This document shows positions 37,461 to 49,636 of a stretch of DNA of 64,000 bases, in pieces. Both the position numbers and the translations under genes were made by a program. The DNA is taken from NCBI GenBank assembly GCA_030065615.1, contig JASJDR010000020.1, positions 1 to 64,000 on the forward strand, read 5' to 3'. Source of the stretch: Xenococcus sp. MO_188.B8 (GTDB taxonomy: Bacteria > Cyanobacteriota > Cyanobacteriia > Cyanobacteriales > Xenococcaceae). Each line of letters starts with the position of its first letter. Positions within the stretch are counted from its first letter, which is position 1. The notes beneath the pieces are model-generated. The model was not told the origin of the DNA and searched no databases. It was given only the letters and a program-made list of their open reading frames with translations.

Positions 37461-38351
37461 TTAAGTGACAGCAAAGATACGGGCTAAGAGGCGAGATAGG
37501 GGCAGTAATGCCAGTAGCAACAATCCGTAAAGCCAATTGGTAAAACCAGCCGCGATAGTTGCATCTAGCACAATTAAAGATAAAATTCCCGCTTTTACTG
37601 CCATTTGAATTAATTGGGGACTAGGATTGATAGCAGCTTTGATAAAAGGGGGTAAAACTAAAGCTATAAATAAGGTCAAAAAAGGCAAAGTAATTAATAG
37701 GGTATATTCGGGCAATAGTCCTAAACCGAGAATACTACTGACAACTATACCAATAAAAGCGATCGCCATAATTCCTGTGATTTTGTTACCTCCTTGGACT
37801 TCTCCTTGGGAAATAGCAGTAATCGCGGCAATGTAGACAATAGGAATTAAGGCTAGATACCAGCGATCGCTTACTGCTGAGGGAATCGCACTTACCCCCA
37901 GTAACAGATTTCCCCCGCGACAAGCACCCATATTTAAAGGACCTAAAAAGGTTTGATGTTTGCCCCATTTATCGTATACAAGGGCTGTTATAGCTACAAT
38001 TGCTGCTAACAAGGCGCTCAGGTTAGAGACCATTGCGGCGGCGACAATGCCCAGAATTAATAAGATAATTCCTAAGGCAATCGCACCTACTAAAGATGCT
38101 CTCCCACTGGGCAGGGGACGTTCTGGGCGTTCAACAGCATCTAATTCGGCATCACAAACATCGTTAAACACAACTCCCCCACCATAGAGTCCTGTGGTAG
38201 CTAAAATTAACCAGCCTAAAGCCAGAAAATCGAGATTGTTAATTCCCTCAGTAAGCACACCAGCAGCAGCATAACCTAGAAGAATATCTGCCCAAGCAGT
38301 GATAATATTAGCGGGGCGCATTAGTTGTAAGTAAGCAATAAGACGAGTCAT
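37461..38351 (-). CDS. eboC: EboC, UbiA-like prenyltransferase family protein
   Basis: A 296-residue membrane protein with about nine helices. The first Asp-rich motif of UbiA enzymes appears as NDVCDAELDAVERPERPLPS at about 63-82, and the region ALVYDKWGKH near 125 corresponds to a UbiA loop. UbiA proteins transfer prenyl groups to acceptors in the membrane; for EboC the substrate is unknown. It is located 109 bp or more from neighbours on both sides, with a heptamer array just upstream of its start. All six ebo genes are in the canonical order here. Confidence 0.87.
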   Translation of the reverse strand: MTRLIAYLQLMRPANIITAWADILLGYAAAGVLTEGINNLDFLALGWLILATTGLYGGGVVFNDVCDAELDAVERPERPLPSGRASLVGAIALGIILLILGIVAAAMVSNLSALLAAIVAITALVYDKWGKHQTFLGPLNMGACRGGNLLLGVSAIPSAVSDRWYLALIPIVYIAAITAISQGEVQGGNKITGIMAIAFIGIVVSSILGLGLLPEYTLLITLPFLTLFIALVLPPFIKAAINPSPQLIQMAVKAGILSLIVLDATIAAGFTNWLYGLLLLALLPLSRLLARIFAVT

Positions 38352-38352
38352 G

Positions 38353-38390
38353 AGTAATAAGTAATAAGTAATAAGTAATAGGTAATAAGT
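38353..38390. repeat. Heptanucleotide tandem repeat (GTAATAA)n
   Basis: About five units of GTAATAA with one variant lie immediately upstream of the eboC start codon, in what should be its leader. A related array is at 44365-44397. Confidence 0.9.
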
Positions 38391-38450
38391 GATATATCTT
38401 GAATTTTTCTATTGCCTATTAATTATCTCCTGATTCCTTGAAGAAAATAA

Positions 38451-38514
38451 GTAGGGTGGGCAAATACTATTAACTCAATTGACTTAGCTTAAAATTTAAT
38501 TTTGCCCACCTTAC
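38451..38514. mobile_element. MITE-like element GTAGGGTGGGC between eboC and eboB
   Basis: GTAGGGTGGGCAAA (38451-38464) and TTTGCCCACCTTAC (38501-38514) form 14-bp terminal inverted repeats with one mismatch around a 36-base AT-rich interior. Elements with these ends are widely scattered in cyanobacterial genomes. Confidence 0.75.
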
Positions 38515-38539
38515 AAGCTACCTAGAACCTTTCAATTTC

Positions 38540-39469
38540 CTAAACAATGACAACCGATTTTGATTCGGAATTTGATTCAATCAAAGGTTTTTGTCCTCTG
38601 AGTACGGAATTTCCACTGTATAGTTGACGTTGATCTATAGGAGAAGCATTTAACCAATCACTTTCCTTGATCTGACCACTTTGACTATAAGCAGTTAGGG
38701 CATTTTGATAGCAAACAGCTTTAATATGGTCTTCGGGAATACCTCTTTCTGCCATTAATTGAGCAGTTTTAGGCACCGCCAAAGGATCGCTAACACCCCA
38801 ATCTGCGCTACTATCGACAATAATGCGATCGCAACCATAATAACGCACTACTTCGACCATCCTTTCATTACCCATTTTGGTGTGAGGATAAATGGTAAAG
38901 GCAGCCCAAAATCCCCGATCTAATACTTCTTGAACGGTTTCTTCATTGTTGTGATCGACAATCACTTGAGATGCTTTTAAACCATGTTCCAAACAAACAT
39001 CCATACTGCGAGATGTCCCCGACTTTTTATTCCGATGAGGAGTATGAATCATGACGGGTAAATCTAATTCCTTAGCTAATTCTAATTGGAGACGGAAATA
39101 CTTATCTTCAGCGGTAGTCATGTCATCATAACCGATTTCCCCAATAGCTACTACTCCTTCTTTACAGGCATATAGAGGTAATATTTCCATTACCGCCTCT
39201 GCTAGTGCCTCGTTATTAGCTTCTTTGGAATTTAACCCGATAGTGCAGTAATGCTTAATGCCAAACTGACTGGCGCGAAATCTTTCCCAACCAACTAGAG
39301 AACTAAGATAATCTTTATAAGACTCGGCACTAGTCCGGGGTTGCCCTAACCAAAAAGCTGGTTCAATTACCGCTACTATGCCAGCTTTTGCCATTGCTTG
39401 ATAGTCATCGGTAGTTCTAGAACTCATGTGAATGTGGGGATCGAGAAACATCATTTTGCTATTTTGCAT
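38540..39469 (-). CDS. eboB: EboB, TatD-like metal-dependent hydrolase
   Basis: A 309-residue amidohydrolase-fold protein. The metal-binding HxH of the first strand is in LDPHIHMSSRT (about residues 9-19). GEIGYDD (about 140), MIHTPHRN (about 167-174), VIVDHNNEE and IIVDSSADWGVSD mark the remaining strands with expected metal ligands. TatD-family proteins are usually DNases or deoxyribonuclease-like, but EboB is a distinct subfamily whose substrate is not known. It lies between eboA and eboC on the minus strand, separated by 160 bp from eboA. Confidence 0.87.
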   Translation of the reverse strand: MQNSKMMFLDPHIHMSSRTTDDYQAMAKAGIVAVIEPAFWLGQPRTSAESYKDYLSSLVGWERFRASQFGIKHYCTIGLNSKEANNEALAEAVMEILPLYACKEGVVAIGEIGYDDMTTAEDKYFRLQLELAKELDLPVMIHTPHRNKKSGTSRSMDVCLEHGLKASQVIVDHNNEETVQEVLDRGFWAAFTIYPHTKMGNERMVEVVRYYGCDRIIVDSSADWGVSDPLAVPKTAQLMAERGIPEDHIKAVCYQNALTAYSQSGQIKESDWLNASPIDQRQLYSGNSVLRGQKPLIESNSESKSVVIV

Positions 39470-39629
39470 TGTTTTATATGGTTATTTTTTAGGATAATTG
39501 AATTTGTAAGTATTTTCACCGACGTAGGCTCTAAGGGCTATGTAGAACTCGTTACAATAAGCAAATAATCTTTCATTCGAGTAATTAGAGCTAAACAAAT
39601 CATTTCGGTACGGTGTTATTCGTCACAGT

Positions 39630-40379
39630 TTAACTGCAAACTCTGTTAAATGCTGTTTTGAGTTCGGCAACAGCTTGGGAGTTAAAGGGTGCGACTAATT
39701 GCCATAATTCAGGATTAACTGTTCTTTTCGCTGCTAATCTTTCGCGGGCATAGTCAATCAACATTTGTGATAACTGCTTGTTGTTGCGAGTTTCTAGACC
39801 GTAAATTGGCTTTAGCGGGCTATCAATAAATAAAGCTTTGAGAACCATCTGGTTCCAGGCTAAATCATCTAAATACTTGGCAGGATAGGGATTGTACAAA
39901 GCTACGGCATTAAAAACCAAGCTCATGTTACTACGAATTCCTTCTGCAGCCCGTAGTTGGAATTTTTCAGGATGAGGCAGCAAGGGTAAACTTTGATACA
40001 AGGCAATTAGTTCTCCTACATCCGCTGCCGCAAAAATTTTATCTAAGGTTGCTACATAATTATCCTTATCCTCATGGGGAAAAGATAAAATCAGCAAGGT
40101 TCGTCCAACTTGGTCTACAGTCCAATTAAGAGGATGCCATCCTGGGATTAACTCTTGAGCTGCTTGTAACTCTTCAGTTGATAATTCTAGTTTTTGCTTT
40201 CCTAGATAACGAGGTACGCTACTAAAAGAAGTAAATAGATTTCTTTCGGCAGCATTTTGGCTAATTTCTTCTTTTTTCCGGTTTAACCAGGCTAAATCTT
40301 CAGTAGAAGTTCGTGTTGCTAACCAGCTATCAAGTAGTGCAACAATTTTATTTGTTGGAATAAAAGTCTCAGGTGACAT
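39630..40379 (-). CDS. eboA: EboA domain protein
   Basis: A 249-residue protein of mainly helical prediction, beginning MSPETFIPTNKIVALLDSWL. Conserved EboA parts include the WHPLNWTVDQVGRTLLILS segment and FNAVALYNPYPAKYLDDLAW, then LKALFIDSPLKPIYGLE. It lacks any known catalytic motif. It is the first gene of the cluster and is preceded by a gap of over 1 kb, so its promoter is presumably there. The function of EboA is unknown beyond the genetic requirement of the cluster for metabolite export. Confidence 0.85.
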   Translation of the reverse strand: MSPETFIPTNKIVALLDSWLATRTSTEDLAWLNRKKEEISQNAAERNLFTSFSSVPRYLGKQKLELSTEELQAAQELIPGWHPLNWTVDQVGRTLLILSFPHEDKDNYVATLDKIFAAADVGELIALYQSLPLLPHPEKFQLRAAEGIRSNMSLVFNAVALYNPYPAKYLDDLAWNQMVLKALFIDSPLKPIYGLETRNNKQLSQMLIDYARERLAAKRTVNPELWQLVAPFNSQAVAELKTAFNRVCS

Positions 40380-41348
40380 GATTTAAGTAATAATATTGAT
40401 ATTATTTAACTTATAATCATATTTAGTGCTAAATGTTGTAAAGCTTCGAGGAAGTCCTAGAACGATAGGTTTTCGAGAACCAATGTGATACTCTATCTTG
40501 GTTTGGGAAATATTAGTCGTTTAAGCCAAAATTACCATATTGATCATCTAAAGCACGCAACTATACTTTATACCGACACAATAAATGTTATGTTAAGCGA
40601 TCTAACCTGGATTGCTTAGAATCAGCTATCCAATTAATTTTGAAGTTTCAAACAGGCTTTTTTAGTTTGAATTAGATTAACATTTCCATAGCTAAAAATA
40701 AACTCGCTGTAATCAGCTATATCATCTAAGCCTATTAGATTGAGTATTATTTCTAACACCAACCAAAACATCAATTTGAAGAATAACTTCTGCCACTGGT
40801 GAGATTTCATCTTCTTCGATAGAACTTGTCTTCATGAGTTACATCAGTTTAGAGACGAAAAGAATATGCAAGGCGATATTTCTAACTTTTATTAGAAACA
40901 CAGAAATATATTTTGTCTATGGAAAAAATCAACATTTAAAAAGATTTAGGCGTTTTTTGAGAAAACTGATTTTCCATTTTTGTTCCCGAAAAGCTTAAAT
41001 CTACTTATGGAGAAGCGAATCAGGACAAACAATCTATATTTATTTGCTAAAAAAGTTCACTTTTCAGTCGTAATACTTATTTTTTTCCTCAAAGTTCTTA
41101 GCTTTTTGGCGATTATTCCTCCATTTTAAAATTCAACTATGACAAAAGCGTTTTATATAATTGAATATAGCCCAAAAACTAATTATCGCGTCGCTAAATC
41201 TTGAACTAAAATAAAAGTAAAATCAATTAAAGTTGGCAAAGCTTTTCAATCTCAAAAGAGGGCAAGCCTACCTCAACTATTAAAAATCAGTGTGGAGTGA
41301 GAGTGGTAAATCGTTAAGCTTTCATTGTTGCGCTATTTTTTTAAAGTT
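40380..41348. other. Long intergenic region upstream of eboA
   Basis: Nearly 1 kb of AT-rich sequence with no recognisable family. A 45-codon minus-strand frame (40634-40771, starting MFWLVLEIILNLIGLDDI) overlaps a second short frame, MKTSSIEEDEISPVAEV, in another register; together they could be a decayed small gene but support is weak. The eboA promoter should lie in the first few hundred bases. Confidence 0.4.
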
Positions 41349-41456
41349 ATGTTGAAAATTGTCATTTTTTTAGGGTTCATTATCTTGTTCATTCTATTGT
41401 GGCGTTGGATTTTATCAACTGACAGAGATTATTCTCCCCCACCTGGTCGAATCTAA
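41349..41456 (+). CDS. 35-residue single-helix membrane microprotein
   Basis: The frame encodes MLKIVIFLGFIILFILLWRW followed by a polar tail ILSTDRDYSPPPGRI and a TAA at 41454-41456. One strongly hydrophobic helix, a Trp-Arg-Trp interface and a proline-rich cytosolic or lumenal tail resemble the architecture of small cyanobacterial membrane subunits, although it matches none of the known photosystem or cytochrome small subunits that I remember. A weak ribosome binding site (AAAG) precedes the ATG. It faces the convergent aldo/keto reductase stop 18 bp away. Confidence 0.55.
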   Translation: MLKIVIFLGFIILFILLWRWILSTDRDYSPPPGRI

Positions 41457-41474
41457 AAGTTATGGTTGAATATT

Positions 41475-42425
41475 CTAGTTTAGACTGAGTAAACTAAGTT
41501 GTCTCACATCTTCTGCACTTAGTTGCCAACCCATAGCTCCTGCATTTTCTGCTGCTTGTTGAGCATTTTTGGCTCCGGGAATCGGAATAACATTTTCCTG
41601 CATTATCAGCCAATTAAGAGCTACCTGAACAGTTGTTTTTTGGTATTTTTCCCCAAGCTGTTTTAAATGAGTAATCAAAGGTTCAATTTTACTTAATCCT
41701 TGAGCCGAAAATTTGGGATCGATTTTTCTTGCTCCCGTAACTCGCTCTTGTTGATCTGGAGTATATTTTCCAGTCAGCAATCCCTGAGCTAGAGGACTGT
41801 ATGCCAGGATTGTAATTCCTAACTTACGAGCTAGTTCTAAAATACCGTTTTGTTCGATCTTCCGCGTTAGCAAAGAATAACGAACTTGATTGACAGCTAG
41901 GGGAACATCGTACTGTGCCAAGAGATCGTGAGCCTGTTGCATTTGGGCTGCTGAGTAATTACTAACTCCAACAGTTAAGATTCGTCCTCGTTTGACCTCC
42001 TCAGCTAAAGCCTCCATCAATGTTGGCTGACCCATAAAAAAGTCAAAGGGCATATGAACTTGATACAGAGCAATCTGTTCGACTTCAAGTCTCTTGAGGC
42101 TAGCTGTTAAAGCATCCGTTACCGCTTGTTTACCAAATCTCCAAGGCAAAGGAAAGTACTTGGTAGCTATCTGTACTGGTTGAGGAGTTTGCTTTAAAAA
42201 TCTTCCCAGAAGCCGTTCTGATTCCCCGAAACCATAAACTTCGGCAGTATCAAAAAATGATGCACCACTGGCTATGGCTGCATCAAAAGCATTTTGCACT
42301 TCTGTTTCACCATAGTCAGAGCCATAACCCCAAAACAAACTATCACCCCAAGCCCAAGTACCAATTCCTAAGGATGGGAGAGTAATATTTTTGAGAGATA
42401 GTTTAGTTGCTTCCATGAGCGTCAT
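41475..42425 (-). CDS. Aldo/keto reductase
   Basis: A 316-residue TIM-barrel NADPH-dependent reductase. The catalytic tetrad is visible: Asp59 and Tyr64 in FFDTAEVYGFGESE, Lys89 in QIATKYFPLP, and His124 in LYQVHMPFD. The C-terminal NVIPIPGAKNAQQAAENAGA binds the cofactor phosphate. It is the last gene of the arsenic-related minus-strand run, 134 bp after the TVP38 gene. The substrate is unknown; related cyanobacterial enzymes reduce small aldehydes. Whether it participates in arsenosugar metabolism is a guess from position only. Confidence 0.92.
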   Translation of the reverse strand: MTLMEATKLSLKNITLPSLGIGTWAWGDSLFWGYGSDYGETEVQNAFDAAIASGASFFDTAEVYGFGESERLLGRFLKQTPQPVQIATKYFPLPWRFGKQAVTDALTASLKRLEVEQIALYQVHMPFDFFMGQPTLMEALAEEVKRGRILTVGVSNYSAAQMQQAHDLLAQYDVPLAVNQVRYSLLTRKIEQNGILELARKLGITILAYSPLAQGLLTGKYTPDQQERVTGARKIDPKFSAQGLSKIEPLITHLKQLGEKYQKTTVQVALNWLIMQENVIPIPGAKNAQQAAENAGAMGWQLSAEDVRQLSLLSLN

Positions 42426-42559
42426 GTAATAATTTTGGGGTCGCTTTACATTACTTTACAACACTCTTTTTACTTTCTGCTTAAAACCAAAAATATTTAC
42501 AGTTGTATTTCAAAGAGTGGGAGGTATTTTTTGGCTTTTGAGCTATTAAGTCCAATTAT

Positions 42560-43285
42560 TTACACCTGAAAATTTTTCCTAGTAATTAGAGGAATAATGG
42601 AAAGTAAGGTCAATAAACCTAACGCGAGCCAAAAAGTGATGGGATCTTCTCCAGCTAAGGCTGATTTGCCGCTAGTGCCTAACCAAGTATAGGCTAGAGT
42701 TCCAGGAATAATACCGATAAAAGTTGTCATTGTATAGGTAACCCAATGAAGAGGGGTTAAGCCAAATAAGAAGTTAACTATGTTAAAAGGAGAAATCGGG
42801 GCAAAGCGAATTGCTAAAACAAAAGCGATGGGTTTATCAATTACAGCTTGGTTAAATATCTTCAATCCTTTATGCTGCGCAAACTTATACTTAATATAAT
42901 CTCTTAATAAATAGCGAGCTGTCCAAAATGCGCCTAATGCTCCTAGCGTAGCGCCGATTGCTGACCATAAAGTTCCCCACCATAGACCAAAAACCAGACC
43001 TCCCACTACGGTTAAGATCGTTCCAGGAATGCCCAGAATAGTTAAGAGAATATAGCAACCAATAAAAGTTAGGATTACACAACTAGAACAGGAATTACTA
43101 TTAAAATAGTCTACAAGAAATTCTTGATTAAATAGAGGTTTAGCCGGACCAATAGTACATAATAAGAGTAAAACAATAAACGCGATCGCAACTCCCATAC
43201 GAGGATTGAACAAGATGGTTAATTTTCTTTTCCTAGTATGTTTATAATTAGGTTTTTTCTTTAAATATAATTTTTTTGTTTTCAC
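42560..43285 (-). CDS. TVP38/TMEM64 family membrane protein
   Basis: A 241-residue protein with a basic N-terminus (MKTKKLYLKKKPNYKHTRKR) and about five membrane helices. The VTT-domain pattern is seen in GIPGTILTVVGGLVFGLWWG, TLGALGAFWTARYLLRDYI and AIRFAPISPFNIVNFLFG. The VTT/DedA superfamily includes proposed lipid scramblases and transporters. In cyanobacteria, genes of this family are frequently placed beside arsenosugar or mercuric genes; here it is 28 bp downstream of arsS, so the two are probably co-transcribed. Its role is unproven. Confidence 0.88.
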   Translation of the reverse strand: MKTKKLYLKKKPNYKHTRKRKLTILFNPRMGVAIAFIVLLLLCTIGPAKPLFNQEFLVDYFNSNSCSSCVILTFIGCYILLTILGIPGTILTVVGGLVFGLWWGTLWSAIGATLGALGAFWTARYLLRDYIKYKFAQHKGLKIFNQAVIDKPIAFVLAIRFAPISPFNIVNFLFGLTPLHWVTYTMTTFIGIIPGTLAYTWLGTSGKSALAGEDPITFWLALGLLTLLSIIPLITRKNFQV

Positions 43286-43313
43286 AGCATCGACCTAATT
43301 GCATTAATATAAT

Positions 43314-44324
43314 TTAAACTAATGCTCCACCACAACTAGAACCACTTCCCGCAGTACAACCATAGCAATAGTCTGCAGTTTTGACTTCATTAATAATATC
43401 AAGATTATTAGTAGATAAAATTTTTGCTAAAGTTAATTTTTCTCCCGTGGAATTGATAGCAGCAAGATTTTCCATCTGATTAAAATCACAATCATAAATA
43501 TTGCCAAGATAGTCAATGGAGAGTTCGTTACGACACATGAGGTTACCTAAAGTTACTGCATTAAAATTTTCTTCTAAAAATTTTAAGTAGTCATCATGCA
43601 ATTTATATCTTTGTAGATATTGTTTGGTTCTGCCAATAGGAATATTAGTAATAGTAAATAAGTGATTAAATTTAATTTCAAAATGTTCAAACAAATATTT
43701 CTTATAATCTTTTTCTAATCGTTGCTGATTGGGAGTTAAAGAGAAATTGGTGTCTTTAGGTAAGCTAGGATTGTAAACTAAATCGATTATTAAATCAGGA
43801 TTAGTAGCGTAACCTAATTGATTAAGTTTTTGAATGGCTAAGATCGATTTGTTATATACTCCAGCACCTCTTTGTTGATCGACATTAGATTCCAAGTAGC
43901 AAGGTAATGATGCGGTAACTCTTAACTTGTTTTGGGCAAAATATTCAGGTAAATCTTTATATCCAGGTTCAAAGAATATGGTTAAGTTGGAGCGAACGAT
44001 AACTTCTTTGCCCTTATTTCTAGCAGCATTAACGATTTGCCTAAATCCGTAGTTCATTTCTGGTGCACCACCAGTTAAGTCTACTGTCTCTATTTGAGGG
44101 AAACGGTTAATAATTTCAATTATTTGCTGACAAACTTCGGTCGATAGTTCTTCTGTTCTTTTAGGACTTGCTTCTACATGACAATGAGTACAAGCAAGAT
44201 TACATTTACGACCTAAATTAATTTGCAGAACAGTGATTTTGTTTTTAGTTAATGGCGTTTTTATTTTGTCACAAAATCGAGTTAAAGATGGTATTTTTGC
44301 TTTATTATTAATAATATTTTGCAT
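43314..44324 (-). CDS. arsS: Arsenosugar biosynthesis radical SAM protein ArsS
   Basis: A 336-residue radical SAM enzyme of the ArsS group. The [4Fe-4S] cysteines are Cys41, Cys45 and Cys48 in GRKCNLACTHCHVEASPKR. VDLTGGAPEM is the glycine-rich SAM site. The C-terminal domain (DUF3641-type) ends with the Cys-rich YCYGCTAGSGSSCGGALV. ArsS forms the 5'-deoxyadenosyl-arsenic bond of arsenosugars from dimethylarsinous acid and SAM-derived adenosyl radical. It lies in a run with arsM and a PiT transporter, and the ATG is 79 bp downstream of the transporter stop. Confidence 0.93.
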   Translation of the reverse strand: MQNIINNKAKIPSLTRFCDKIKTPLTKNKITVLQINLGRKCNLACTHCHVEASPKRTEELSTEVCQQIIEIINRFPQIETVDLTGGAPEMNYGFRQIVNAARNKGKEVIVRSNLTIFFEPGYKDLPEYFAQNKLRVTASLPCYLESNVDQQRGAGVYNKSILAIQKLNQLGYATNPDLIIDLVYNPSLPKDTNFSLTPNQQRLEKDYKKYLFEHFEIKFNHLFTITNIPIGRTKQYLQRYKLHDDYLKFLEENFNAVTLGNLMCRNELSIDYLGNIYDCDFNQMENLAAINSTGEKLTLAKILSTNNLDIINEVKTADYCYGCTAGSGSSCGGALV

Positions 44325-44364
44325 AATTTATTACTTCCTATTTTATTCATAAAATATAATTTTT

Positions 44365-44400
44365 TTACTCATTACTCATTACTTATTACTTAATTACTTT
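44365..44400. repeat. Heptanucleotide tandem repeat, TTACTCA/TTACTTA units
   Basis: TTACTCATTACTCATTACTT followed by ATTACTTAATTAC makes about four units. Read on the other strand they are AGTAATG/AGTAATA, the same heptamer family as at 38353-38390. Confidence 0.85.
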
Positions 44401-44403
44401 CCT

Positions 44404-45519
44404 TTATTGAAGTAAAAAGTATGTAATGCCACTTACTACAGCTGCAATTGGTAAAGTCAAAAACCATGAGCCAAGTACTTGTGAGAAAACATTAATATGG
44501 GCAGACTGAGAAATTACACCTACGCCAAAAATAGAACCTACAGAAACATGAGTTGTCGAAACAGGTACCCCTAAACGACTAGCAAAAATAACTAAAAATC
44601 CTGTTACCAAATTGGCAGATAATCCTTTACCTGCATTAAGAGTAGTAATTTTTTTACTAACTGTATTAGCAACTTTTTTTGCATTTAATAAACCTCCAAT
44701 TGCCATACCCAAACCCACTGCTAACATGCCGCCTTTAATTGAGAAAGCAGACACAGTTAAGAGCAAAGCTACAATTTTAGGAGTATCATTCAGACCTCTG
44801 GCAAAGCTAACAATTCCAGCGCTGATAAAGTGACAAGTATCTACTATTTTTTGACTATCAATTCCTAAAAAATTTCCCACATATTTTTGTTGACATTTTT
44901 CGGTGGTATCAATAGCAATATCAGGAGTCACAACAGCTTGGAGAATACTACTATTAGCTGTAACTGCAACTGGTACTAATTCTTGTTTATTTCCGGCACA
45001 AATACACCAAGCTTTATTAATGCCAAATAGCAATCTCAGATAGCGAAAAGTACTATAGACAATTGCTCCTAAAATTATGGCAATTAAAGGACTAACTAAT
45101 AAGGGAATAAAAAAAGATTTACCTAAAGCAGCAAAATTTAACTCTTTGCCAATTGCCATTAATCCCGCTCCAGTTAAGGCTCCGGTGAGACTATGAGTTG
45201 TGGAGATGGGAAAACCAGTTACAGTAGCCAAAATTACTGTTAATCCCGCGCCGAAAGCAACCGCAATGTGAAACTGATCTGCATTAGCAATAGCTGTGGG
45301 AACTAATCCTTTACCCGAAAAGTTTTTTAATAAAGCATCAGCCAAGGCGATTGAGGCAATTGAACCAGCAAAAGTTGTCAAAGTTGCCCACCAAATTGCT
45401 ATTTTGTAGTTAATAGTTTCGCTACCAAATAAAGTTGCTACTCCTTTAAAATTATCATTAGCCCCATTAGCATAAGCCAAAAAAAATGTTGTCAAAAAAA
45501 TTGCAATTGCCCAGATCAT
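44404..45519 (-). CDS. PiT-family inorganic phosphate transporter
   Basis: A 371-residue membrane protein with two PiT repeats. Repeat 1 has ANGANDNFKGVATLFGS and TGFPISTTHSLTGALTGAG; repeat 2 has FARGLNDTPKIVALLL and LGVPVSTTHVSVGSIFGVG. The central loop contains KAWCICAGNK, usual for the cyanobacterial members. PiT proteins import phosphate, and arsenate as analogue, driven by ion gradients. Its position between arsM and arsS is notable because the substrates of the pathway derive from arsenate. The start codon is preceded by a MITE-like hairpin at 45547-45623, which lies in the arsM-pit spacer. Confidence 0.9.
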   Translation of the reverse strand: MIWAIAIFLTTFFLAYANGANDNFKGVATLFGSETINYKIAIWWATLTTFAGSIASIALADALLKNFSGKGLVPTAIANADQFHIAVAFGAGLTVILATVTGFPISTTHSLTGALTGAGLMAIGKELNFAALGKSFFIPLLVSPLIAIILGAIVYSTFRYLRLLFGINKAWCICAGNKQELVPVAVTANSSILQAVVTPDIAIDTTEKCQQKYVGNFLGIDSQKIVDTCHFISAGIVSFARGLNDTPKIVALLLTVSAFSIKGGMLAVGLGMAIGGLLNAKKVANTVSKKITTLNAGKGLSANLVTGFLVIFASRLGVPVSTTHVSVGSIFGVGVISQSAHINVFSQVLGSWFLTLPIAAVVSGITYFLLQ

Positions 45520-45546
45520 AAGTCATTTTTTCAAAATAGATTACCT

Positions 45547-45623
45547 AGTAGAGGCGTAGCCCTAAAGGATTTCCTAAAGGATACCGCTTTGCATAAGCTT
45601 CGCGTCCATGCTACGCCTCTACT
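45547..45623. mobile_element. MITE-like hairpin, AGTAGAGGCGTAGC ends
   Basis: AGTAGAGGCGTAGC (45547-45560) is perfectly complementary to GCTACGCCTCTACT (45610-45623). The interior has CCTAAAGGATACCGCTTTGC and AAGCTTCGCGTCCATGC, linking it to the elements at 34522, 36031 and 56747. It separates arsM from the PiT gene. Confidence 0.85.
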
Positions 45624-45644
45624 GTTACGTTACATCCCTATTTT

Positions 45645-46853
45645 TTAACAGCATTCTCCTGGAGAACAACAATCTGTATTACTGTTAGTATCTGTCAAAT
45701 TATATTCCGATCCTTTAGATTCTCTAGCATGACGAATGGCTTTATTTTTACAAGCATAAGGTTCTGCTTCCTCTAAAGGAATATTTTCGTAAGGTTCAAT
45801 GGGAATGATTTCGTTTTTATAGGGACTATTAGGATTAGTTAAAATTTGATAAGTCTTATCGCATACTGCCATTCTTTCCCCACGACAATAGGTATGACCA
45901 TCATCATCTTGTACTTGTTTCCAAGGTCCCTTATAAACAACTGCTTGCTTACGTTCCCAACATTCTCCTTCCTTTCCTTTATAAGCCCGAACTGTCATAG
46001 AACGAAACTCAACACCATCAATAACTTGCCAGGGATTTTCTTCTCTTTTTAAAATTTCAATACCATAAAATCCCGCATCTTCAAACATTTTAAGAAACAG
46101 ATCTTCGCGAAATGCTCCTGCAATACAACCACTCCAAAGTTCAGGGTTATTTAAAATTTCTGTTGTCGGATCTTCATCGCAAACAATATCAGAAATTACT
46201 ACTCTACCACCACGCTTTAGTACCCGAAAAATTTCAGCAAATAACTGTTGTTTATCTTCGGGACGAACTAAGTTAAGAACGCAGTTAGAAATAACAATAT
46301 CAACGCTATTATCAGCAATTAAAACTTCTTCTTTTCTCAAGCGATCGCATTCTGCTTCGTATTTACTGATTCCTTCTATTGAAGAAATATTATTATTTTG
46401 CAACCAATTTTGTACAGGCTCTAAAGGCAACTTAAGATCTTGTATTTTTCCTTTAACAAATTCGGTATTATGATATCCTAGCTTACCTGCTATTTCCTGT
46501 TGATACTTCCTTGCTAGAGATAGCATCTCGTCATTAAAGTCTACGCCAATGATCTTGCCATGAGCACCAACTTTTTGTGCGAGGATATAACAATTCTTAC
46601 CTGCGCCAGAACCTAAATCTACAACGGTTTCCCCTGGGTTCACATAGCGGGTAGGATCACCACAGCCATAATCTTTAGCAATAATTTCTTCTGGTAAAAT
46701 TTCTAAATAATTGCCTTCATATTCTGTGGGACAACAAAGACTAGGCTGTTGTTGTCTTGCTCCTTCTTGATATCTTTCGAGTACTTCAGATTCAATGTTA
46801 TAGGCGATGGAAGTAGAATTTGATTCTTGTTGAGAAATAACAGTTTCAGTCAC
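45645..46853 (-). CDS. arsM: Arsenite methyltransferase ArsM
   Basis: A 402-residue SAM-dependent methyltransferase. The SAM motif VVDLGSGAGKN is at 78-88. Arsenic-binding cysteines expected in ArsM are represented by Cys40/41 (SLCCP), Cys64 (YGCGDP), Cys191 (SNCVLNL) and Cys243 (SGCIAGA). The protein is longer than many bacterial ArsM and ends in a Cys-rich tail (CCSPGECC) like those of cyanobacterial and algal forms. It methylates arsenite stepwise to mono-, di- and trimethyl species, the dimethyl form feeding ArsS. No arsR-like repressor lies next to it, so control is not evident. Confidence 0.92.
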   Translation of the reverse strand: MTETVISQQESNSTSIAYNIESEVLERYQEGARQQQPSLCCPTEYEGNYLEILPEEIIAKDYGCGDPTRYVNPGETVVDLGSGAGKNCYILAQKVGAHGKIIGVDFNDEMLSLARKYQQEIAGKLGYHNTEFVKGKIQDLKLPLEPVQNWLQNNNISSIEGISKYEAECDRLRKEEVLIADNSVDIVISNCVLNLVRPEDKQQLFAEIFRVLKRGGRVVISDIVCDEDPTTEILNNPELWSGCIAGAFREDLFLKMFEDAGFYGIEILKREENPWQVIDGVEFRSMTVRAYKGKEGECWERKQAVVYKGPWKQVQDDDGHTYCRGERMAVCDKTYQILTNPNSPYKNEIIPIEPYENIPLEEAEPYACKNKAIRHARESKGSEYNLTDTNSNTDCCSPGECC

Positions 46854-47198
46854 AGATACTCAATCCTTGTCTTAAATTTGGACTACAGTTAATGGTTCGG
46901 CAATTATAGCCACCGAACAAGAGGTTAGGTAAGTAATATTAAACGTTTTAAACATGGGGGCAAATGGTTATTCGCCCTGAGGTAGTTTATACATCCTAAC
47001 CTTGGCTTCGACTACTAAATAAAGCAGATTTTGAGAAAAAAATACAGATTTTCTCCTGATATTTTAAGTTTTGGGGTTTTTGCTCTGAGATATCTCTATT
47101 TAAAGCAATAGAAATGAAATTTTCCTGAGATTTAGTTTAACTTCTTCTGGGTTAGCTGTTTTGTTATAAAAAAATCTAGCCGATATTGAATCGACGCC
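46854..47198. other. Intergenic region upstream of arsM
   Basis: About 345 bp without a gene, between arsM and the GGDEF gene. It must contain the arsM promoter. I saw no ArsR-type inverted repeat and no hairpin with a T run. Confidence 0.4.
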
Positions 47199-48593
47199 CT
47201 AGGCAAGTGGCAGTTCTAAAGCCTTATACTTGACCCGATTACGTCCTAAAGCTTTGGCTTCATACAAAGCACGATCAGCAGCAGCAATTAGAGATTCAGG
47301 AGAAGAGTCGGGACTGGGAATAATACTCGAAACTCCCAAACTTAAGGTTACGTAATTACTTACTTGGGATAAATCATGGGGAATTTGTAATTTGAGAATC
47401 CGTTCTCGAACATCTTCAGCAACGGTCAAGGCTCCTTCTCCTTGAGTAAAAGGTAAGATCATGGCAAATTCTTCTCCCCCATAACGAAATACCACATCAG
47501 CAGGACGTTTAATTGCCAGACTCATTCCTTGAGCTACCTTGTGTAAACATTCATCTCCTGCTTGATGCCCATAAGCGTCGTTATAAAATTTGAAAAAATC
47601 TACATCACATAAGATTAAAGCAAGAGTTTGTTTTTCCCGAGCACATCTTGACCATTCTTGATTCAAATATTCATCGAAACGGCGGCGATTGGCAACTTGA
47701 GTTAGACTATCGATATTGGCTTGACGTTTTAGTTCTAAATTAGCTTCTTTGAGCTCAATTTCCATTTGTTTGCGATCAGTAATGTCCCGAAAATTCATGG
47801 CAAATCCGTCACCCAATTTAACAGCAACAATATGAAACCAATTTTGATCGCGATTGTAGTAATGCTCTTTGTCTAAGACAATGCAGTTTTCCACTACTTG
47901 AACAAATAAATCAAACAAACCTTCAAATAAGTGACCTGACAAGTTTTCTAGTAACAGTTTACCTCTCAAGCTATCTCCCGTTTCCCCTACTGTCATAGCT
48001 GCTACTGGATTAACTACTAACCAACGAAAATTAACAATTATGCCCCAGCGATCGCGAATTGCCTCAAAGGCGGCTACCCCATCAAGAGAACTATTTAATA
48101 CTCCCGCTAAAAGCGCCCGTGATTGATTAAGATCGTGGGCGACAGTTTTTCTTTCTTGAGCTGATTGATAAAGAAGTTTTTTAAAATTTTCTTTTTCTCG
48201 ATAAATTTTTAATTGATTTTCTACCCGCAGCACTAATTCTCTGAGAAAAAAAGGTTTGGTGATATAGTCTGAACAACCTAATTTAAAAGCTTGTACTTTG
48301 TCACTTTCTGAGTCCAGGGCACTAATAAAGATTATGGGAATCTCACGGGTTTTCTCATTAGTCTGGAGAATCTGGCATAGTTTATAGCCGCTGATCGCTG
48401 GAAGAACGACATCTAGTAGTATTAAGTCAGGAAACTCTCCTCTAATTGCGTGGAGAGCCATTTCTCCATCAGCAACGCAATGAACTCGATAACCTTGCTT
48501 CATTAAAACAGACGACAAAAGGCGTAGATTATCTAAAGAATCATCTACTATGAGAATATTGCCTTTAATCGGTGCATCGTATTCTTTGCCCAT
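47199..48593 (-). CDS. Response regulator-GGDEF diguanylate cyclase
   Basis: A 464-residue signalling protein. A receiver domain occupies about 10-130 with phospho-acceptor Asp61 (LILLDVVLP) and Lys113 (YITKPF). A PAS-like segment lies at about 165-275, ending in MNFRDITDRKQME, which matches the PAC connector. The GGDEF domain covers about 292-455 with the active-site GGEEF at 372-376 and the c-di-GMP inhibitory site RPAD at 363-366. It should make c-di-GMP on phosphorylation and be feedback inhibited. No kinase gene is adjacent. Start is ATG at 48593, just after a run of AT-rich sequence. Confidence 0.9.
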   Translation of the reverse strand: MGKEYDAPIKGNILIVDDSLDNLRLLSSVLMKQGYRVHCVADGEMALHAIRGEFPDLILLDVVLPAISGYKLCQILQTNEKTREIPIIFISALDSESDKVQAFKLGCSDYITKPFFLRELVLRVENQLKIYREKENFKKLLYQSAQERKTVAHDLNQSRALLAGVLNSSLDGVAAFEAIRDRWGIIVNFRWLVVNPVAAMTVGETGDSLRGKLLLENLSGHLFEGLFDLFVQVVENCIVLDKEHYYNRDQNWFHIVAVKLGDGFAMNFRDITDRKQMEIELKEANLELKRQANIDSLTQVANRRRFDEYLNQEWSRCAREKQTLALILCDVDFFKFYNDAYGHQAGDECLHKVAQGMSLAIKRPADVVFRYGGEEFAMILPFTQGEGALTVAEDVRERILKLQIPHDLSQVSNYVTLSLGVSSIIPSPDSSPESLIAAADRALYEAKALGRNRVKYKALELPLA

Positions 48594-48992
48594 TCACCGT
48601 TACTTGGTCATGAATAATCATTGTTATGTAGGATTTGTTTAAACCTTGAATTAAGGTTTATATTGGGGATAATAATATCCAATTTAAATATTTGCTAATG
48701 AGCTATTAAGTACTAATCTAATTTTAAATCTGAATCTTAGCTATTGCCAGTCTTACAAGGTAATTGAAATTGCTTGAGTTGATGTTGATTTGCTCAAACT
48801 TAAGGATAAATACTTGTTTACTCTCCCAACTATATTTCTGTTGGCTTCAAGACAAATACTGATAATTTATTATTCATCGATATTGAGAAGAATATTTATA
48901 GGTAACAACAATTAGATATTAACCCCCAGTCAAATTACCCAAACAATTTTAATCACTGATCTAGGTTCAAAAAATATTAATTAAAACTTTAT
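48594..48992. other. AT-rich intergenic region
   Basis: About 400 bp between the GGDEF gene and a small hypothetical gene. Nothing beyond AT-rich sequence and a few short direct repeats is visible; no gene or RNA was recognised. Confidence 0.4.
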
Positions 48993-49202
48993 TCAATGCC
49001 CAACTTTTTCTAGTGACTGACGGGAAACTAATTTTTCAACGTTAGCTTGAGTATCCTGTAACATTTTTTCTCTACTAGTAGTTACATCTGTAAGACTGGG
49101 AAGAAAATTACGAGCTTGTAATGCCATATGGAGTTGTAGCTGAGCTACATATTCACTAATATCTTCGCGAAACTGTTCTTGATGAGTTAATTGAAAATTC
49201 AC
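48993..49202 (-). CDS. Small hypothetical protein
   Basis: I prefer a GTG start complementary to 49200-49202, because GAGGAG lies ten bases upstream; the longer reading from 49244 begins inside that leader. The product has 69 residues (VNFQLTHQEQFREDISEYVA, later TSREKMLQDTQANVEKLVSR), highly charged and helical, without membrane segment. It may form a coiled coil. No family is recognised. Confidence 0.5.
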   Translation of the reverse strand: MNFQLTHQEQFREDISEYVAQLQLHMALQARNFLPSLTDVTTSREKMLQDTQANVEKLVSRQSLEKVGH

Positions 49203-49636
49203 GTTGTCCGATCTCCTCGAAAAAATGTATTTTTGTAATATCAAATTTGGACCCTTGCCCTTATTATCCCATGTAGATAGGATGTTACCCTCGCTTATCC
49301 TTATGATCCCGTTTGACAGAGCCCATAGGGGGCGAGCGAAAAAATGCTTGGGGATTTAAGGGCTTGGGGGCTTGGGGAATCAATTGTCCCCCTATCTTCC
49401 CACACCTCCCACACTCCCCACCCTTCCCACACTCTTCACATCTCTATCTTCCTACTTCCCGATCTCCCTGTTTACCACAGTAAATTTTGCTCACCCGCCC
49501 ATAGGGGAATGAAAAAACCTTAGCAGGGTTACTCGTCAATATAAACTAACATGATAGTTAGATTTTTTAAACCTACTTTAGGGGATTCTCAATATTTCGC
49601 AATACTATTTGTTAATAAAATTAATTTTTGGTGAAT
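49203..49636. other. Intergenic region with pyrimidine-rich tract
   Basis: About 430 bp without a gene. Near-identical GCCCATAGGGG(G) motifs at 49321 and 49497 bracket a low-complexity C/T-rich segment of about 90 bp (49384-49470). The bases before the cobI stop are AT-rich. Confidence 0.5.

Follow-up and report, generated by a model that had tools for sequence, protein, structure and literature searches.

In the cyanobacterium Xenococcus sp. MO_188.B8 a gene for a divergent transporter of the PiT (PHO4) family lies between arsM and arsS, the two genes whose enzymes begin arsenosugar synthesis, and this association recurs in other cyanobacteria and in further phyla. The cluster is located in a stretch of 64,000 nucleotides, positions 1 to 64,000 of contig JASJDR010000020.1 (assembly GCA_030065615.1), that was analyzed as a whole and is referred to here as the window. 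By the known chemistry of these families, ArsM converts arsenite by methylation into dimethylarsenic species and ArsS attaches the 5'-deoxyadenosyl group; arsenosugars are common in marine food chains. As judged from gene neighborhoods, the link between PiT and the arsenosugar genes is not a matter of chance, and PiT is probably a genuine partner of the pathway, though an optional one. A transporter gene that repeatedly joins arsM and arsS, with either of two ArsM families, would be a direct candidate for transport in this pathway, and the pairing would tie the handling of phosphate and arsenate to the making of arsenosugars instead of the usual arsR/arsC/acr3 resistance operon. The literature searched was accessible in part, with subscription journals mostly outside its scope, and yielded no description of a pairing of PiT with arsenosugar genes and nothing conclusive on the membrane passage of arsenic substrates or products in arsenosugar makers.

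Recurrence of PiT with the arsenosugar genes

Among 24 other genomes of the window genome's family (G001-G024, with family names taken from named tree neighbors, and some identical to named loci, such as G001 with L122), 22 carry arsS and 8 a PiT that is unbroken as far as the contig shows. Six of these have the order arsM-PiT-arsS (G001, G004, G014, G015, G016 and G022); in G018 arsM and PiT stand together with arsS on another contig, and in G024 PiT is cut by the contig end. A broken PiT is found between arsM and arsS in three genomes: G011 (L115) has lost about 370 bp from the middle, G019 (L116) keeps the last 210 bp or so, and in G023 the gene consists of two frames with a stop, although for each of them an error of the draft assembly is possible. 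No such PiT is present in 13 genomes. Remnants were sought in 12 arsM-arsS gaps from 10 genomes and found only in L115 and L116, both already among the broken copies, while the gaps of the other 8 genomes contained none.

In a sample of 386 cyanobacterial genomes, searched at E-values up to 1e-40 for PiT and up to 1e-60 for ArsS, the PiT subfamily occurs in 20 and ArsS in 174. ArsS is present in 18 of the 20 PiT carriers versus 156 of the 366 others (Fisher p 2.4e-5, kinship uncorrected). PiT lies within 3 kb of arsS in 14 of the 20 carriers, and the count rises to 17 if arsM, or remnants of arsM and arsS, are included: G055 and G214 have PiT beside an arsM (the location of arsS in G214 is not among the matches listed), and G197 has it between short remnants of arsM and arsS. 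Note that G226 was counted as adjacent though its PiT, divided between two contigs and with a stop in the first piece, may be interrupted; in G085 PiT lies at the end of a contig. The expected chance adjacency of PiT to arsS is roughly 0.001 per genome.

The ArsM of the Nostocaceae-type loci (f18) belongs to a different family, NF038099 (570.6 bits in L085, with a cut-off of 400), and is about 26% identical to the ArsM of the window. In 8 of the 12 loci of this type that have both genes, arsM and PiT are separated by 15-18 bp, and in the other four they overlap or are 68-205 bp apart; the gaps between PiT and arsS range from 24 bp to about 580 bp. One further locus (L110) pairs a long-form PiT with the second ArsM family, its arsS being on another contig. 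In a tree made by a quick method, all cyanobacterial PiT rows form a single clade (28 rows, SH-like approximate likelihood ratio test 99), 25 of them in arsenosugar context. That one clade of PiT accompanies two ArsM families is hard to explain by chance.

One genome per species was scanned with a sequence pattern, and the best 80 of 575 confirmed loci were taken; the flanks measure 5 kb or more on both sides in 44 of them and less than 5 kb on one side in 36. With homologues of arsM, arsS, TIGR04169, TIGR04282 or TIGR04283 counted as arsenosugar genes, such a gene lies near PiT in 34 of the best 80 loci and in 23 of the 44 with the longer flanks. Represented among these loci are Flavobacteriaceae (Altibacter, Aquimarina, Aequorivita), Pontibacter, Methylococcales, Brocadia, Spartobacteria, Omnitrophota and a Burkholderiales record; metagenome-assembled genomes (MAGs) are numerous among them. 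The Altibacter operon (L190) reads TIGR04169, ArsS, rhodanese, TIGR04282, purine nucleoside phosphorylase, NF038099 ArsM and PiT, followed by a fatty acid hydroxylase, a protein grouped with DUF547, and TIGR04283; similar marker sets are found in L183, L189, L191, L194 and L199. A Spartobacteria MAG (L171) has the order arsM-PiT-arsS, and a Burkholderiales MAG (L201) arsS-PiT-arsM. In a Bacteroidota sample of 247 genomes ArsS occurs in 104 and PiT (E up to 1e-70) in 5, all five of them with ArsS (p 0.013, kinship uncorrected) and two with arsS within 10 kb. On the whole PiT tree, in which 22 rows with short flanks and no arsenosugar gene were left unlabelled, the arsenosugar context changes 13 times, at least 8 of them on well-supported branches, compared to 21 times in shuffles, and the association is therefore clustered yet repeated. 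The preliminary description of this DNA had named a lack of co-occurrence elsewhere, together with a separate constitutive promoter of PiT, as what would refute a link between the transporter and the arsenic genes; PiT is a recurrent neighbor in cyanobacteria and other phyla, and on the count of co-occurrence the link is not refuted. A separate feature of this survey is an Omnitrophota MAG in which ArsS and ArsM are fused (L173:10450-12504, 684 aa, TIGR04167 at residues 17-319 and ArsM from about residue 336), the fusion gene clustering with PiT, a TVP38-like protein and homologues of TIGR04282 and TIGR04283.

Several observations weigh against a firm bond. At the thresholds used, 156 of the 174 arsS-bearing cyanobacterial genomes and 99 of the 104 arsS-bearing Bacteroidota genomes are without a PiT of this subfamily, and because most sampled arsS genomes lack it, PiT is not needed for the arsenosugar pathway. 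Conversely, 46 of the best 80 PiT relatives show no arsenosugar gene nearby (as do 21 of the 44 with the longer flanks), the PiT of G077 and G312 is 2-3 Mb from arsS, and in three of the five Bacteroidota carriers it is not within 10 kb of that gene. Both tests of co-occurrence at the genome level ignore kinship, and the lysine substitutions in the PiT signatures described below could mean a changed cargo. Loss is seen in both directions. An open PiT stays where the adjoining arsM and arsS have decayed or gone, as in L088 (G197), L095 (G312) and L084 (G077); a search of G197 for ArsS at E up to 1e-60 gave no match, and the other two genomes keep an arsS elsewhere. In turn, PiT is broken while arsM and arsS remain in G011, G019 and G023. 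A PiT that outlives ArsM and ArsS fits better with a general cargo, phosphate or arsenate, than with a product of these enzymes.

The PiT subfamily and its probable cargo

A profile of the PiT relatives matches the solved phosphate transporter 6l85 (E 5.5e-38), and the PiT of the window covers PF01384 at full length (model positions 1-350 of 350, 204.6 bits, cut-off 33.7). It has the two repeats of the family, and the P-[IV]-S-T-T-H motifs in both repeats are common to 6l85 and the long PiT forms. The canonical signature GANDxxN is found in neither repeat, and the sequences NDNFK and NDTPK stand in its place. The lysine of the first, K25, is present in 91 of 91 subfamily members, an invariance that is partly built in, as one retrieval pattern contained NDNFKGVA; that of the second, K248, was in no retrieval pattern and is present in all 78 long members and in 11 of the 13 short ones. 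In contrast, 6l85 and the six canonical cyanobacterial PiTs compared have Asn in both repeats, while E. coli PitA, a metal phosphate:H(+) symporter according to its RefSeq record, combines Asn in the first repeat with Lys in the second. As PitA shares this second lysine, the pair marks a subfamily rather than an exclusion from the PiT family, and a lysine in the signature does not exclude phosphate. Changed ion coupling or a changed cargo are both possible consequences. The window PiT reaches 48 bits with the NCBIfam model of PitA (cut-off 800) and 60 bits with the CysP-type sulfate permease model NF053884 (cut-off 400).

PiT is under purifying selection in the pairs compared. Between the window and L102 the ratio of nonsynonymous to synonymous substitution (dN/dS) is 0.056 for PiT, 0.058 for arsM and 0.098 for arsS, and for PiT in three Nostocaceae-type pairs it is 0.17-0.20; a copy that does not adjoin arsM and arsS is part of two of these pairs. 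The Nostocaceae-type proteins are short, with about 320 aa and no central loop. In the short PiTs of L082, L084, L092, L093, L095 and L096 the motifs of the second repeat drift, e.g. SMTQ for STTH and FYDTPR for LNDTPK, and NDNFKGVATLFGS of the first repeat is unchanged. Between L104 and L105 the synonymous divergence of PiT (0.134) is below that of the flanking arsM (0.489) and arsS (0.305), which hints at a separate exchange of the PiT gene. The window genome (8.26 Mb) has two PHO4 genes, the second adjoining an apparent fragment of polyphosphate kinase 2 and a DUF47-type protein, as read by eye from the open reading frames (ORFs). Of 12 named genomes searched, 10 gave a further PHO4 match, which was split into two pieces in one genome and was no more than a contig-end fragment in another, so that the subfamily PiT is usually not the sole PHO4 copy. 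An AlphaFold model of PiT calculated from 18 sequences was poor (mean predicted local distance difference test score 55.5) and was not used.

The explanation that we favor, and to which we give about an even chance, is that arsM-PiT-arsS is an arsenosugar-synthesis unit that took in a divergent PiT as an optional transport component. The sugar-finishing enzyme would be encoded elsewhere, by the gene of a TIGR04283 glycosyltransferase on another contig. PiT would act as a low-affinity, cation-coupled symporter that imports phosphate and unavoidably accepts arsenate too, and if it were expressed with the arsenosugar pathway, phosphate would keep entering cells that carry arsenic. A cargo of the phosphate type is suggested by the P-[IV]-S-T-T-H motifs shared with 6l85, by the lysine in repeat 2 of PitA and by the role of Pit in E. 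coli, where it is named as an arsenate entry route in the accessible part of a review (PMC12607644). The coupled phosphate and arsenate transporter of the preliminary description thus gains comparative support from the recurrence of PiT with arsM and arsS; coupled uptake or phosphate sparing, its proposed function, is something that we infer.

A doubtful but serious alternative is that PiT serves the pathway as a dedicated arsenical transporter, whether by importing arsenate as its feedstock or by exporting a methylated arsenate, e.g. dimethylarsinic acid, DMA(V), a phosphate-like anion. This would agree with the embedding of PiT in full arsenosugar operons, with the replacement of Asn by Lys at both symmetric signature positions and with the additional rhodanese-domain protein in the operon of Altibacter, as the rhodanese fold includes some arsenate reductases. 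It is less easily reconciled with the open PiT genes at the three loci with decayed or lost arsM and arsS, even though two of these three genomes keep arsS elsewhere, with the more than half of the best 80 relatives that retain the lysine pair with no arsenosugar gene nearby, and with PitA, which has one of the two lysines. Still more doubtful is the broader proposal that the Lys/Lys subfamily is the dedicated arsenic-oxyanion transporter of arsenosugar makers in many phyla, taking arsenate in or methylated arsenate out with altered ion coupling; if true, this PiT would be the missing transport step of the arsenosugar pathway.

That PiT is an unrelated passenger, brought into this neighborhood by coincidence or by the shared ancestry of the genome region, we regard as improbable. 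The absence of such a PiT from 13 of the 24 family relatives and its decay in 3, the distance from arsS in G077 and G312, and the 46 relatives without an arsenosugar gene nearby all point in this direction, but the recurrence of PiT with two ArsM families and in several phyla, the 13 changes of context on the tree with at least 8 well supported, against 21 in shuffles, and the very low chance adjacency per genome argue against it. The least probable alternative, in which PiT supplies phosphate to a later step, either the phosphorolysis of dimethylarsinoyl-adenosine by purine nucleoside phosphorylase or the formation of phosphorylated arsenosugars or arsenosugar phospholipids, can point to the purine nucleoside phosphorylase in the PiT-containing operon of Altibacter (PRK08202, 343 bits, cut-off 218; TIGR01700, 300.6 bits, cut-off 293) and to members of the protein cluster of this enzyme in 6 of the best 80 loci, but that protein cluster was not found in the cyanobacterial loci examined or among the annotated genes of the window, most sampled arsS genomes manage without PiT, and, on general grounds, a phosphorylase is not normally short of phosphate in the cytoplasm.

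Expression of the cluster

The preliminary description had noted that no arsR repressor is evident near the cluster and had suggested regulation by phosphate instead. The first part is borne out, as a search for ArsR-type proteins (PF01022) gave no match on the contig of the window and 7 elsewhere in the genome, so that arsR is not adjacent to the arsM cluster. Phosphate control, although conceivable, is not supported. The region 46854-47198 upstream of arsM was scanned for a Pho box with a cyanobacterial consensus and 60 shuffles per test. For three repeats, 13 and 14 of 24 positions agreed on the two strands and 28 of 60 shuffles were as good; for two repeats, 12 of 16 positions agreed on the opposite strand and 2 of 60 shuffles were as good. 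When 15 upstream regions were taken together, at most 3 of 60 shuffles were as good in 5 of 30 tests (window, L106, L109, L116 and L121), where about 2 are expected, and sites and strands differed between them. The case for a Pho box in control of the cluster is thus weak.

In the accessible parts of the published work, arsM of Nostoc PCC 7120 is reported to be expressed constitutively and to have no adjoining arsR (PMC5258700). For Synechocystis arsM, which is not under ArsR, one study saw no induction, and a review mentions that induction after two weeks has been reported (PMC4010505, PMC4284471). With no arsR beside its arsM, the window resembles Nostoc PCC 7120, whose NsArsM (alr3095) may however belong to the other ArsM family, a weak link made through a primer match: the quantitative PCR primer given in PMC5258700 has 2 mismatches to arsM of Nostoc sp. 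KVJ20 (L188) and no exact match among the fetched loci, and its sole match in L085 (3 mismatches) falls outside arsM. The relevant text of PMC5258700, seen in part, does not mention PiT. An OmpR-type response regulator is encoded upstream of arsM in many Nostocaceae-type loci, e.g. L085:3122-3796 and L092:3058-3732. Its nearest models are NblR, RppA and PhoB, all matched below every listed cut-off, and we claim no phosphate link through this regulator.

The strong hairpin in the gap between arsM and PiT (Table 1) makes co-transcription of the two genes in the window strain less than certain. A terminator-like hairpin (47195-47179) also follows the gene upstream of arsM; terminator-like sites in the stretch are not above chance (1 found, 4.6 expected). 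A promoter scan remained at chance level (20 versus 21.9 expected), and a search of 38000-49500 against Rfam at gathering thresholds gave no match.

Upstream of arsM lies a conserved 17-base box, possibly an operator, that recurs in L063-L067, L073, L102-L106, L115 and L121-L125, at a distance of 130-210 bp from arsM in the relatives where this was measured. The upstream ORFs differ in length and strand in the four loci looked at, and the box is also present in L121, where arsM and arsS have no PiT between them. The window genome has a single exact copy; the 16 further matches at 2 mismatches, compared to 1 for the reversed control pattern, indicate that the box may not be specific to arsM.

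Gene identities and neighbors

Table 1. Genes and noncoding elements of the arsM-PiT-arsS region (window coordinates).
Feature	Position	Strand	Description
arsM-like arsenite S-adenosylmethyltransferase	45645..46853	minus	402 aa, GTG start; best matches to ArsM models, below cut-off
PiT (PHO4) family transporter	44404..45519	minus	371 aa; PF01384; subfamily with NDNFK and NDTPK signatures
arsS, arsenosugar radical SAM enzyme	43314..44324	minus	336 aa; TIGR04167; DUF3641 and Radical_SAM domains
TVP38/VTT-domain membrane protein	42560..43285	minus	241 aa, GTG start, 28 bp downstream of arsS; PF09335
Aldo/keto reductase	41475..42425	minus	316 aa; PF00248; probably a neighbor, not a unit member
arsM-PiT gap with long hairpin	45520..45644	minus	matching 11-base arms 45610-45620 and 45550-45560; fold -41.7 kcal/mol, z -4.8
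Conserved 17-base box TCTCAGGAAAATTTCAT / TCTCAGGRAAATTTCAT	47114..47130	minus	260 bp upstream of arsM; in 17 of 201 fetched loci, representing 7 relatives

The five genes are consecutive on one strand and in the order in which the preliminary description had placed them, with intergenic gaps from arsM to the aldo/keto reductase of 125, 79, 28 and 134 bp. The gene upstream, separated from arsM by 345 bp, encodes a response-regulator/GGDEF protein (48593-47199). ArsS of the window passes TIGR04167 (421.9 bits, cut-off 300), and the matches of the VTT protein to PF09335 (88.9 bits, cut-off 33.9) and of the aldo/keto reductase to PF00248 (210.1 bits, cut-off 24) are likewise above threshold. The best matches of the window ArsM are ArsM models, but each is below its cut-off (NF040538, 316 of 500 bits; PRK11873, 198 of 263; NF038099, 123 of 400), and for this reason the protein is called ArsM-like by homology; it also matches the Methyltransf_31 domain and shares 91% identity with its counterpart in Xenococcus sp. 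PCC 7305 (L122), the nearest named relative among the matches listed. Compared with the known arsenosugar genes (TIGR04167, NF038099, TIGR04282, TIGR04283), the window agrees in its ArsS, in an ArsM homologue two genes before it and in a TIGR04283 glycosyltransferase elsewhere in the genome, where 1 of 36 matches is above the cut-off (274 versus 182 bits, contig C315, outside the cluster). It differs in the PiT that sits between arsM and arsS and in an ArsM that is not of the NF038099 family.

TVP38 is a frequent neighbor of the recurring arsM-PiT-arsS unit and adjoins arsS in 8 of the 16 arsS-bearing loci of the window genome's family that were read with wide flanks. By type alone it can be likened to the Tvp38/DedA protein Slr0305 of Synechocystis (PMC3836016); it differs in that the window gene follows arsS, and the text of PMC3836016 contains neither 'arsenic' nor 'slr0303'. 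The aldo/keto reductase, in contrast, is probably a mere neighbor: the flanking DNA, of varying length, of 40 related loci and of the best 80 of the 575 loci gave no match to it of at least 50 bits. The closest relative (L102/L122) has neither TVP38 nor the aldo/keto reductase beside arsS, and a role of the latter as arsenosugar reductase was dropped. From the set of five whose co-occurrence in cyanobacteria was at issue, arsM, PiT and arsS thus recur together, often with TVP38 near, and the aldo/keto reductase is found in no relative read.

Downstream of the cluster (38540-40379, minus strand) are an EboA-family gene (NF035937, 365.7 bits) and the gene for a TatD-like hydrolase, perhaps an ebo-type metabolite cluster. 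On contig C163 of the window genome (L217) a gene for a PstS-family phosphate-binding protein (300-1325; TIGR02136, 287.7 bits, cut-off 206.6) lies 121 bp ahead of the one ACR3 arsenite exporter gene found in this genome (1447-2601, 427 bits), a second pairing of phosphate and arsenic genes.

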